Positions 8,037-11,839 of a stretch of DNA of 64,000 bases are shown here, in pieces. Below the pieces are notes generated by a model. It was not told the origin of the DNA and ran no database searches. It worked only from the letters and a program-made list of their open reading frames with translations. This DNA comes from Stutzerimonas xanthomarina DSM 18231 (GTDB lineage Bacteria > Pseudomonadota > Gammaproteobacteria > Pseudomonadales > Pseudomonadaceae): assembly GCF_900129835.1 (NCBI RefSeq), contig NZ_FQXA01000002.1:558001-622000 (forward strand), in the 5' to 3' direction. The first letter of the stretch is position 1. Each line of letters starts with the position of its first letter. The position numbers and the translations under genes are program-made.

Positions 8037-8504
8037 CTAGCGAACCATGCCCTGAAGAAACTGAGGGGCGGTATAACGCTGGTAATGGGCTTCAGAAAGG
8101 AGAAAGAACTCCCGGTCAATGGCATCGCGAAGCTCAGGCAAGGACCAATCGCGAAACTCCGGCAGCAGCACGACGCCATAGGCTTCGAGCTGCTGAATCA
8201 CCCGCGCGCCGCGCGCGATCAGTTGATAAGCCCAACAGTAAACCGACTGGTCCGCAACGAAGCGAATCTGCCGATTTTCCAGCTGACGGCGCAGCAGCGC
8301 CGCATCGAAAACCTCCAGCTTTGCCGCCATCACCTGCGCAAGCAAAACCTCCAGGCGCTTCCAGACCGAGCGTTTGACGTCTTCGCTATAGCCATTCCAG
8401 TTCACTACTTCATGATGAAACCGTTTGCATCCACGGCAGACGAGATCACCATAAACGGTGGAGCAAAGGCCTACGCAAGGGGTTTTGATTCGCTGATTGG
8501 GCAT
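8037..8504 (-). CDS. DUF1289-domain protein
   Basis: A 155-residue protein with an N-terminal DUF1289 module: TPCVGLCSTVYGDLVCRGC near residues 8-26, followed by KRFHHEVVNWNGYSE. The four cysteines (C-x3-C and C-x2-C) suggest a small metal-binding knuckle. This is inferred from spacing only; the family has no settled function. The remaining 110 residues are helical and carry no motif I recognise. Another start 48 bases upstream is possible, but the ATG at 8504 places the Cys motif at the usual distance from the N-terminus. No good RBS precedes either start. Confidence 0.85.
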   Translation of the reverse strand: MPNQRIKTPCVGLCSTVYGDLVCRGCKRFHHEVVNWNGYSEDVKRSVWKRLEVLLAQVMAAKLEVFDAALLRRQLENRQIRFVADQSVYCWAYQLIARGARVIQQLEAYGVVLLPEFRDWSLPELRDAIDREFFLLSEAHYQRYTAPQFLQGMVR

Positions 8505-8680
8505 GGGCGCGATGGATCGATGGACAGCGCCGCATCTTAGACTTTTGTCCAAGTTCGGTCACTGACCAATCCGTACCAGGCGTTCGAAAAAGAGCCATAC
8601 AGCCCACGGATTACGGGCCTCGGCCGAAAGCGCCAAATCCTCCTAATCAGCCGCGCCACTGCCGCAGCCGGGCGTTTCAC

Positions 8681-8709
8681 TTAACTTTGCGAACCCGTTC
8701 CAGTAGAAT
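8681..8709 (+). promoter_or_regulatory. Putative sigma-70 promoter of acnB
   Basis: TTAACT at 8681-8686 and TAGAAT at 8704-8709 are separated by exactly 17 bases (four and five of six consensus matches). They predict a start near 8716 and a 5' leader of about 190 nucleotides before the acnB GTG. No other comparable hexamer pair was seen in the 400-bp gap. Inferred from sequence only. Confidence 0.6.
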
Positions 8710-8733
8710 CGGCCCGCCGTTTTAGGCGCCACA

Positions 8734-8860
8734 ATCCGCAAGAAGCTGTTTTCAAAGCGTCACGAGCACAGTTGACCGGCTACCCACCGGGTGCGCAGAT
8801 CCCTCTAACCTGCGCCCCGGTTTTCAAACCGGCGTAAAACTTTGAAAACAGCTTCCGGAT
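8734..8860 (+). promoter_or_regulatory. Structured 5' leader RNA of acnB with mutually exclusive stems
   Basis: A perfect 16-base inverted repeat, GAAGCTGTTTTCAAAG (8742-8757) and CTTTGAAAACAGCTTC (8840-8855), closes an 82-base interior. Five further pairs (ATCCG 8734-8738 with CGGAT 8856-8860) extend it across a three-base bulge. Inside, ACCGGG-T-GCGCAG (8786-8798) pairs with CTGCGC-CCCGGT (8810-8821), a 12-bp stem with one bulge. A second hairpin, CCGGTT/AACCGG (8817-8832), competes with that stem. The 9-mer GTTTTCAAA occurs twice (8748-8756 and 8820-8828), and either copy can pair with TTTGAAAAC at 8841-8849. The layout is riboswitch- or thermosensor-like, about 50 bases from the start codon. 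I know no named RNA family that matches. Confidence 0.65.
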
Positions 8861-8906
8861 GCGCGTCCCGAGACACCCAAGGGACCAATGATGAGGGTAT
8901 ATAACT

Positions 8907-11516
8907 GTGCTTGAAGCCTATCGCAAACACGTAGAAGAGCGTGCCGCCCAGGGCGTCGTGCCCCAGCCGCTGAACGCCGAGCAGACCGCAGGCCTGGTCG
9001 AACTTCTGAAAAACCCGCCAGCCGGCGAAGAACAGTTTCTTCTCGATCTGATCACCAACCGTGTTCCGGCGGGCGTCGATGAAGCTGCCTACGTCAAGGC
9101 CGGTTTCCTGGCAGCCATCGCCAAGGGTGAAGCCACCTCTCCGCTGATCAGCAAGCAACACGCTGTAGAGCTACTGGGCACCATGCAGGGCGGCTACAAC
9201 ATTGTCACGCTGGTTGACCTTCTGGACGACCCGGAGCTCTCTGACACCACCGCAAAAGAGCTAAAGCACACCTTGCTGATGTTCGATGCGTTTCACGACG
9301 TCGCGGAAAAAGCCAAGGCTGGCAATGCCAACGCCAAATCTGTGCTGCAGTCCTGGGCCGACGGCGAGTGGTTCAAGAATCGCGCACCGGTAGCTGAGAA
9401 AGTCACTCTGACGGTATTCAAGGTCACTGGCGAAACCAACACCGACGATCTGTCCCCTGCGCCTGACGCCTGGTCGCGCCCGGATATCCCACTGCATGCT
9501 CTGGCGATGCTGAAAATGGCGCGCGACGGCATCAACCCGGACGTTCCTGGCTCGGTTGGCCCGCTCAAGCAGATGCAAGAGCTGACGACCAAAGGCTTCC
9601 CAATCGCCTACGTGGGTGACGTAGTCGGTACCGGCTCCTCGCGTAAATCCGCTACAAACTCGGTGCTGTGGTTCTTTGGTGATGACATCCCCAACGTACC
9701 GAACAAGCGTGCCGGCGGTTTCTGTTTCGGCACCAAGATCGCTCCGATCTTCTACAACACCATGGAAGACGCCGGCGCCCTGCCGATCGAGTTCGACTGC
9801 TCCGACCTGGCCATGGGTGACGTGATCGACGTCTACCCCTACAAGGGCGAAGTCCGCCGCCACGGCAGCGATGAGCTGGTCACCACCTTCCAGCTGAAAA
9901 CCGACGTCCTGCTCGACGAAGTGCGCGCCGGCGGTCGTATCCCGCTGATCATCGGTCGCGGCCTGACTGAAAAAGCACGCGCCGAGCTGGGCATGGGCCC
10001 GTCTGATCTGTTCAAGAAGCCGGAAGCTCCGGCAGAGAGCAACAAGGGCTTTACTCTTGCGCAGAAGATGGTCGGTCGCGCCTGCGGTCTACCGGAAGGC
10101 AAAGGCGTCCGTCCGGGCACCTACTGTGAGCCGAAGATGACCACTGTCGGTTCCCAGGACACCACCGGCCCGATGACGCGCGACGAGCTGAAGGACCTGG
10201 CTTGCCTGGGCTTCTCGGCTGACCTGGTGATGCAGTCCTTCTGCCACACTGCGGCCTATCCGAAGCCGATCGACGTCACCACCCACCACACGCTGCCGGA
10301 CTTCATCATGACCCGCGGCGGTGTTTCCCTGCGCCCTGGTGACGGCATCATCCACAGCTGGCTGAACCGCATGCTTCTGCCGGACACTGTTGGTACCGGC
10401 GGTGACTCGCACACTCGCTTCCCGATGGGCATCTCCTTCCCGGCCGGTTCCGGCCTGGTCGCCTTCGCTGCTGCTACCGGCGTCATGCCGCTGGATATGC
10501 CGGAATCGGTATTGGTTCGCTTCAAGGGCAAGATGAAGCCTGGCATCACGCTACGCGATCTGGTTCATGCGATCCCTTACTACGCCATCCAGAAAGGCCT
10601 GCTGACCGTCGAGAAAAAAGGCAAGAAGAACATCTTCTCTGGTCGCATTCTCGAGATCGAAGGCCTGAACGACCTGACCGTCGAGCAAGCATTCGAGCTA
10701 TCGGACGCCTCGGCAGAGCGCTCTGCTGCTGGCTGTACCATCAAGCTACCGGAAGCGGCTATCGCCGAGTACCTGCAGTCGAACATCACTCTGCTGCGCT
10801 GGATGATCAGCGAAGGCTATGGCGATGCTCGTACCCTGGAGCGCCGCGCTCAGGCCATGGAAGCCTGGTTGGCTCAGCCGGAACTGCTGGCTGCCGATGC
10901 GGACGCCGAATACGCCGAGATCATCGAGATCGACCTGTCGGAAGTCACCGAGCCTGTACTTTGTGCGCCGAATGACCCGGACGATGCTCGCCTGCTCTCG
11001 ACCGTTCAGGGCGAGAAGATCGACGAAGTGTTTATCGGTTCGTGCATGACCAACATTGGTCACTTCCGCGCCGCCGGTAAGCTGCTGGACAAGGTCGACG
11101 GCGCCCTGCCGACTCGTCTGTGGCTGTCGCCGCCGACCAAAATGGACCAGCATCAGCTGACTGAGGAAGGCTACTACGGTATTTACGGTCGCGCCGGTGC
11201 GCGTCTGGAGATGCCGGGTTGCTCGCTGTGCATGGGCAACCAGGCACGCGTAGAAACCGGCTCGACGGTGGTCTCCACCTCGACTCGTAACTTCCCCAAC
11301 CGTCTGGGCGACGCGACCAACGTGTACCTGGCTTCTGCAGAACTGGCAGCTGTCGCTTCGATTCTCGGCCGCCTGCCGACTGTCGAGGAGTACATGGTCT
11401 ATGCCGCTCAGATCGACACCATGGCGGCTGACGTCTACCGTTACCTGAGCTTCGATCAGATTGCCGAGTTCCGCGAATCTGCGGCCAAAGCAAAGATCGA
11501 CGTGGCTGCTGTTTGA
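8907..11516 (+). CDS. acnB: Aconitate hydratase B
   Basis: The main TCA-cycle aconitase, interconverting citrate and isocitrate through a [4Fe-4S] cluster. At 869 residues it has the AcnB architecture: an N-terminal helical HEAT-like domain (about 1-160), the swivel domain placed before the catalytic core (about 165-380), then the three core domains. Cluster ligands are visible as the Cys of [12 protein letters not shown] near 710 and the C-x2-C pair of [13 protein letters not shown] near 770. The start is a GTG at 8907 behind GATGAGGG; the product begins [12 protein letters not shown], typical of Pseudomonas AcnB. Apo-AcnB binds RNA in E. coli, and PrrF small RNAs repress aconitase in P. aeruginosa. 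A structured leader precedes this gene and a strong terminator follows it. Confidence 0.98.
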
Positions 11517-11580
11517 TGCACCAGTGACAATGCTCGCTTCGCAGGTTGGATAAACGGCCTGACGACGCAGCAGCAGATAA

Positions 11581-11615
11581 GCAAACGCCCCGACTGGTTC
11601 GGGGCGTTTGCTTTT
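11581..11615 (+). terminator. Rho-independent terminator of acnB
   Basis: GCAAACGCCCC (11581-11591) and GGGGCGTTTGC (11601-11611) form a perfect 11-bp stem around a nine-base loop. TTTT follows. It lies 65 bases after the acnB stop and occupies part of the 323-bp gap before the ABC-F gene. Nothing else convincing was seen in that gap apart from the presumed ABC-F promoter region. Confidence 0.9.
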
Positions 11616-11839
11616 GCGGACCTCATACAACTGCCGGCGCAGCTATGCGACAATAGCGACCCTGTCTGGCATGAACCCCTACCTTGGTCCCAACAGCTCG
11701 GCCCCTGCGCACGAATGCTGCTGCCAACCTACGCCCGCCGGATCAACGCTGTGGGGCTTTGGGCAAACGAGCAACGACGTTTGCACCAAACATGCACAAG
11801 CCGAAAACTAACACTCTGAAACCCGCGAGATAGAGCTTC

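Follow-up and report, generated by a model that had tools for sequence, protein, structure and literature searches.

The window, the whole 64,000-nt stretch of DNA analyzed here, carries an open reading frame of 869 codons on its forward strand that we take to be acnB, as the preliminary description named it. Matches to its N-terminal 150 amino acids are present in 135 of 138 genomes of the host family. Aconitase B is a main TCA cycle enzyme, and its iron-sulphur cluster ties metabolism to iron and oxidative stress. The leader upstream of the gene is predicted to adopt one of two competing structures, fold A, the putative ON state, and fold B, the putative OFF state. The features of the locus are as follows.

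8681..8709, + strand: predicted acnB promoter, TTAACT - 17 - TAGAAT, with a transcription start expected near 8716
8734..8738, + strand: 5' strand of P1a, AUCCG, with the partner CGGAU at 8856-8860 in the predicted fold
8742..8757, + strand: 5' arm of P1, the fold A partner of 8840-8855
8758..8764, + strand: CGUC internal loop facing AAAA at 8836-8839, and ACG (8762-8764) paired with CGU at 8833-8835
8763..8773, + strand: anti-start element CGAGCACAGUU, complementary to AACUGUGCUUG at 8903-8913
8781..8785, + strand: UACCC, the fold B partner of GGGUA at 8895-8899 in the window, from a constrained fold
8786..8821, + strand: variable inner stem-loop P2, 8786-8798 with 8810-8821, from the fold and from covariation
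8840..8855, + strand: 3' arm of P1, from complementarity and alignment
8865..8885, + strand: P3 hairpin, GUCCC (8865-8869) with GGGAC (8881-8885), immediately 5' of the Shine-Dalgarno sequence
8890..8897, + strand: Shine-Dalgarno sequence GAUGAGGG, from the sequence and seen again in leaders of relatives
8903..8913, + strand: acnB start region AACUGUGCUUG with GUG at 8907, the target of the anti-start element
8907..11516, + strand: acnB, aconitase B, GTG start at 8907

The two arms of P1, GAAGCTGTTTTCAAAG (8742-8757) and CTTTGAAAACAGCTTC (8840-8855), are perfectly complementary over 16 bp, as the preliminary description had stated, and the structure is not random. As RNA, the 129 nt from 8734 to 8862 fold at -56.3 kcal/mol with a z-score of -7.5, and none of 200 shuffled sequences was equally stable. 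The bulged 12-bp inner stem reported earlier was recovered as well (8786-8798 with 8810-8821). In the window, the apical loop of this P2 hairpin displays CCCUC (8801-8805), a weak anti-Shine-Dalgarno sequence. P1a reads AUCC/GGAU in the window and GUCC/GGAC in genus g10, a difference judged by eye rather than counted. Because the opposite strand of 8734-8862 folds just as well (z-score of -7.6 against its own composition), the strand cannot be read from fold stability. The element is present as a single copy in a DNA search of the host genome, and the two matches of our covariance model R1 there are the two strands of one place. The several copies per genome that are typical of a mobile repeat (MITE) were thus not seen, the host genome giving one DNA match.

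Neither strand of the window leader matched an Rfam 15 family up to an E-value of 5, which agrees with the earlier remark that no named RNA family is known to have this structure. At the loci of eight relatives, Rfam 15 gave three matches only, to snoRNA, lncRNA, and IRES families, each reaching at most about half of the cut-off. No description of this acnB leader was found in the titles and abstract beginnings of the openly licensed PubMed Central papers listed, although one could exist elsewhere; PMC4448311 names acnB once, in a Synechococcus table. At the other end of the gene, a weak Rfam match to sX6 (RF02225; 25.6 bits against a cut-off of 40, E-value of 0.001) at 11470-11628 on the + strand overlaps the end of acnB and its 3' region.

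The promoter at 8681-8709, considered plausible before, is the only promoter-like site within 8500-9000. In 94 of the 106 leaders that had enough upstream DNA to be scored (21 others were too short), a similar promoter, with at most one mismatch per box, precedes the 5' arm by 25-37 nt. Since this conserved promoter lies upstream, a transcription start downstream of 8860, which the preliminary description had named as a finding that would speak against the element, appears unlikely from the sequence. No intrinsic terminator that could serve as an attenuator, that is, a G+C-rich hairpin followed by a U run on the + strand, was found in the leader. The two terminator-like sites within 8500-9000 are each on the - strand.

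Upstream regions of acnB were collected from all 19 genera sampled in the family. Of these 164 regions, 159 were usable after four second acnB copies (L191-L194) and L134, which covered a wrong interval, had been dropped. These second copies come from genomes of g10 and g12, and their leaders are unrelated and lack P1. The P1 arms are present in the acnB leaders of 17 of the 19 genera and are missing from g3 (one leader) and g5 (14 leaders). Removal of the g3 and g5 leaders and merging of identical cores left 127 distinct leaders. Set A1 holds 47 of the 49 host-genus cores, and set A2 holds 30 cores from g2, g4, g8, g12, g14, and g15; R1 was built on 47 host-genus sequences. In seven of the 14 g5 leaders (L100, L110-L113, L121, L122), another inverted repeat, GGGAAGCACTGAATA...TATTCAGTGCTTCCC or similar, is found. 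This repeat was considered as a homologue of P1 and rejected as a different element, missing from the other seven g5 leaders; its appearance suggests a small mobile element that inserted into this leader. A perfect 17-bp inverted repeat in L374, from another family, AGGGAGCCTTTGAATAA, lies about 86-183 nt upstream of the acnB start and resembles the ends of the g5 insertion. In L055 (genome G013), the loop is about 140 nt longer than in relatives, while the P1 arms, the anti-start element, and the Shine-Dalgarno sequence are intact, which indicates an insertion inside the putative switch.

Absence from close species had been named at the outset as a reason to give up the element. By DNA search, the leader is instead present in 55 of 56 host-genus genomes, and the sole genome without it is 71% complete. 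The same search across the family found the leader in 252 of 298 genomes and in 16 of 19 genera, and R1 found it in 117 of 138 family genomes and in 17 of 19 genera, with a third match in five family genomes. In a sample of the order (n = 244), R1 matched ten family members and gave one weak match outside (G894, E-value of 0.002). A 23-base core pattern, with up to three mismatches allowed, was found in two of 369 genomes of a class sample, both of the host genus, and in none of the 367 class genomes outside that genus. In the order sample, 12 of 244 genomes matched this pattern, two of them outside the family. The latter two were rejected as homologues; they sit in open reading frames encoding EAVFKA and are therefore attributed to chance. 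No convincing homologue outside the host family was found in the class and order pattern scans or with R1 on the order sample. Among the matches listed, the 80 named ones with the exact pattern belong to Pseudomonas, Stutzerimonas, and one Pseudomonadaceae bacterium, and the Pseudomonas matches listed include P. syringae, P. putida, P. fluorescens, P. alcaligenes, and P. oryzihabitans. A recognized acnB start lies at most 480 nt away in 107 of the 119 named matches listed; of the remaining 12, four have an acnB-like start with other letters, and in eight the sequence ends first. In other families (L359-L373), several acnB leaders without P1 have a CTTAACTT promoter box and a GATGAGGG Shine-Dalgarno sequence. 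The ribosome site therefore probably predates the switch.

Across the 127 distinct leaders, the cells of the P1 arms comprise 2002 Watson-Crick pairs, 27 G.U pairs, and three mismatches. An A-to-G change recurs in the 3' arm, another A-to-G occurs in the g18 5' arm, and g7 shows one compensatory G-C to A-U change together with one mismatch. The G.U cells keep their pairing solely in the acnB-sense RNA. Covariation, proposed earlier as a check on both stems, is accordingly uneven: it is weak in the near-invariant 16-bp stem, which has just that G-C to A-U change and the G.U cells, but is found in the inner stem. In the host-genus alignment, 28 cells are changed on both sides, compared with 10.0 in shuffles (none of 500 reaches 28), and all of them are in the inner stem; counted as pairs changed on both sides, the host genus has four, which is no excess, as 94 of 500 shuffles attain this number. 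Paired cells amount to 96.9% in this alignment versus at most 43.9% when the structure is slid, although the structure was derived from the same sequences. The CGUC/ACG segment at 8758..8764 does not vary among the 47 host-genus sequences. The CGUC/AAAA internal loop is kept in most genera, altered in g18, and absent in g7. P3 shows compensatory changes between genera (GUCCC/GGGAC, GUUCC/GGAAC, GCCCU/AGGGC, GCCCC/GGGGC). It is also present in g3 and g5, which have no P1. In g6 it is weak, and three of the four g13 leaders showed none.

These patterns bear on whether the inverted 16-mers act in DNA, as two operators for a transcription factor. Letters that are near-invariant in both orientations would suit such operators. 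However, the spacing between the arms ranges from 42 to 109 nt and reaches 226 nt in one genome, and the recurrent A-to-G confined to the 3' arm preserves RNA pairing while it breaks the DNA symmetry. Together with the covariation of the inner stem and the position of the sites downstream of the promoter, this makes an operator function very improbable.

The preliminary description had based its two alternative folds on a second copy of GTTTTCAAA at 8820-8828. This copy occurs in one of the 127 distinct leaders, that of the window, and the 9-mer switch was abandoned. The broader proposal of a structured acnB leader with two alternative folds, conserved and with a promoter upstream, holds, but the conserved alternative fold uses other segments. 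An exact complement of at least 8 nt to the start region (-6 to +10) is present in 102 of the 127 leaders with P1. No such complement was found in 15 family leaders without P1, taken from g3 and g5, or in 19 leaders of other families (19 of 24 loci, five being omitted for length); the longest in either control set was 6 nt. Scored as a contiguous helix, the anti-start pairing of 12 genera is equaled, in the median, by no more than two of 300 shuffles and no more than two of 46-47 decoy start sites; in the host genus, a median of none of the 300 shuffles and none of the 46 decoys was as good. This test failed in g6, g7, g13, g18, and g19. P1 is retained in g7, g13, g18, g19, and g6, yet the first four and most of g6 lack the pairing, so P1 must have further value or another OFF fold exists. 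In g6, the drift in the anti-start/start pairing is uncompensated. As the anti-start element and the start region are near-invariant, there is little covariation between them. The duplex energy of the whole loop (RNAduplex) is not specific, with 21 of 46 decoys binding the window loop at least as well as the true start site and a genus median of 17 of 46. Whole-loop energies do beat shuffles (mean z-score of -2.2 in the host genus), which here, as in the contiguous-helix and anti-Shine-Dalgarno tests, preserve single-letter content only.

An anti-Shine-Dalgarno sequence of 8-12 nt lies 3' of the anti-start element in most leaders of g2, g4, g6, g8, g12, g14, and g15, and typically its helix has at most one G.U pair, at an end. 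An exact anti-Shine-Dalgarno match of at least 8 nt is present in 96 of the 107 named leaders with a recognized start among the matches listed. In g13, the Shine-Dalgarno sequence is AAAGAGGG and the loop carries CCCUCUUU or a near form, both being altered together in three of four members. The anti-Shine-Dalgarno match is no better than shuffles in the host genus (median 98 of 300), and the same holds for g7, g17, g18, and g19. The order of the two elements, anti-start and then anti-Shine-Dalgarno, suits a single antiparallel duplex across the whole ribosome site.

The P1 stem and the start-site pairing are mutually exclusive as nested folds. Each was forced in the 101 leaders with an anti-start element (the other 26 of the 127 have none to force). 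Fold B minus fold A has a median of +4.0 kcal/mol, the gap is at most 8 kcal/mol in 86 of the 101, and in all 101 fold A or fold B lies within 0.5 kcal/mol of the minimum. Vienna energies at such lengths carry errors of several kcal/mol. The window leader has -83.5 kcal/mol for fold A and -75.7 kcal/mol for fold B. Fold A is preferred by a mean of 6.0 kcal/mol in the host genus, and therefore the OFF state would need help there. When the stretch between the 5' arm and codon 10 is folded without constraints, P1 forms in only 64 of 127 leaders.

A long perfect duplex in a 5' leader could also be an RNase III site or a stabilizing hairpin that does not switch. RNase III is not known to need near-invariant letters, and neither function predicts the complementarity to the start and to the Shine-Dalgarno sequence, so we regard this explanation as quite unlikely.

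We conclude that the acnB leader RNA is real and specific to the family, and that its two competing folds are both kept in most of the sampled genera. From sequence comparison and modeled folds, the acnB leader is probably a bistable cis-acting RNA switch of translation initiation, in which the stem would be ON and the start-site pairing would be OFF. It shows two of the features expected of a translational leader switch, namely exclusive folds of similar predicted energy and a conserved start-site pairing beyond chance. Comparison supports the structure and the complementarity well. Beside the observed conservation, complementarity, and near-equal predicted fold energies, its function, direction, and signal are what we infer. 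In fold A, the near-invariant arms would form P1, and the leader would leave the Shine-Dalgarno sequence and GUG free. In fold B, the 5' arm would fold on itself, with GAAGCU (8742-8747) pairing back with AGCGUC (8756-8761). CGAGCACAGUU would then be available for pairing around the start codon, and in many species the downstream anti-Shine-Dalgarno sequence would also pair with GAUGAGGG. P1 would be transcribed before the ribosome site, and therefore ON is probably the kinetic default. A signal, if present as we suppose, would shift the balance away from ON. Its likely contacts are the 3' arm of P1, single-stranded in fold B, and the CGUC/AAAA internal loop; apo-AcnB, a TCA metabolite, and Hfq together with PrrF are candidate signals. 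The letters of P1 are conserved beyond what either fold explains, and GUUUUCAA would be a loop in fold B.

This excess conservation leads to the question of whether P1 is primarily a protein site, for apo-AcnB, Hfq/Crc, or another protein, with its letters serving recognition and the start complementarity being secondary. The sequence of P1 and of the CGUC/AAAA loop is kept far past the needs of base pairing. In E. coli, according to PMC4150767, apo-AcnB binds its own mRNA, citrate counters the stabilization, and RyhB binds the acnB ribosome site. However, the E. coli AcnB site is in the 3' UTR and not in the leader. Moreover, the binding of a protein would not by itself lead one to expect the anti-start match, and none of the 34 control leaders has it. 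We consider a protein site as the main function possible, though on balance improbable. Another explanation is a metabolite riboswitch, in which P1 and the internal loop would be the aptamer for a TCA compound such as citrate or isocitrate, with fold B as the expression platform. A conserved internal loop in a closing stem and a fold that hides the ribosome site, upstream of a TCA enzyme, would resemble riboswitch anatomy. Nevertheless, the element precedes one gene in one family only and lacks a multi-helix junction, and the internal loop is altered or lost in g7 and g18. A riboswitch is thus unlikely.

The iron-responsive small RNA PrrF provides a further link to the ribosome site. PrrF (RF00444) was matched in all 26 family genomes searched, in 23 of them above the Rfam cut-off. 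Of the 26 best PrrF loci, 23 carry the exact core UCCUCAUCAGG and three carry a near form. The core contains CCUCAUCAG, the complement of CUGAUGAGG, which is found at the acnB gene in many relatives; in the window, the complementary letters are CCUCAUCA and UGAUGAGG. Since the PrrF core is complementary to the acnB Shine-Dalgarno sequence, the leader anti-Shine-Dalgarno sequence, where present, copies that core, a comparison made on the PrrF core sequence. The leader itself did not match RF00444; the host PrrF lies elsewhere (G000:C8). In P. aeruginosa, acnB expression under low iron is higher in prrF mutants (PMC2851614). The leader may therefore mainly tune repression by PrrF, with the cis anti-Shine-Dalgarno sequence competing with PrrF for one site. 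Yet g13 retains PrrF while its acnB Shine-Dalgarno sequence differs, g3 and g5 have PrrF but not the leader element, and tuning leaves P1 and the anti-start element unexplained. We find this role rather doubtful. The PrrF, RyhB, and apo-AcnB facts may serve as leads to the trigger of the proposed switch, not as evidence for it.

Combining these elements, we tentatively propose a new class of signal-responsive leader RNA of the Pseudomonadaceae in which P1 would act as both sensor and antisequestor, and the OFF state would cover the acnB start site by means of an in-cis copy of the PrrF seed. Translation of acnB would then follow iron or TCA status through this single RNA. We consider this full version less likely than not. 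A conserved cis switch in most genera of the Pseudomonadaceae, a family of medical, agricultural, and industrial importance, would add an unrecognized layer of carbon and iron control. Two folds with defined pairings make the switch testable with standard reporter fusions.

A close biological parallel is the control of acnB in E. coli (PMC4150767), where the acnB mRNA is likewise concerned, with autoregulatory RNA binding and with an iron-related sRNA that binds the ribosome site; the AcnB site there is in the 3' UTR, whereas the element described here is in the 5' leader. The PrrF core UCCUCAUCAGG and the anti-Shine-Dalgarno sequence of relatives, CCCUCAUCAG, have CCUCAUCAG in common and share the acnB target. 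PrrF acts in trans. The leader copy, which is weak in the host genus, would act in cis from inside the P1 hairpin. In eukaryotes, the iron-responsive element and IRP1 tie aconitase biology to a leader hairpin. The CAGUGN apical loop with a bulged C of that element was not seen here by eye, and a long stem with an internal loop is found instead. In leader switches that sequester the ribosome binding site, such as translational riboswitches and RNA thermometers, one of two exclusive folds hides the Shine-Dalgarno sequence and the start. The acnB leader shares with this class its 5' position, exclusive folds, and a predicted hidden ribosome site, but differs in that the switching helix is a near-invariant 16-bp stem and in that it serves one gene in one family.
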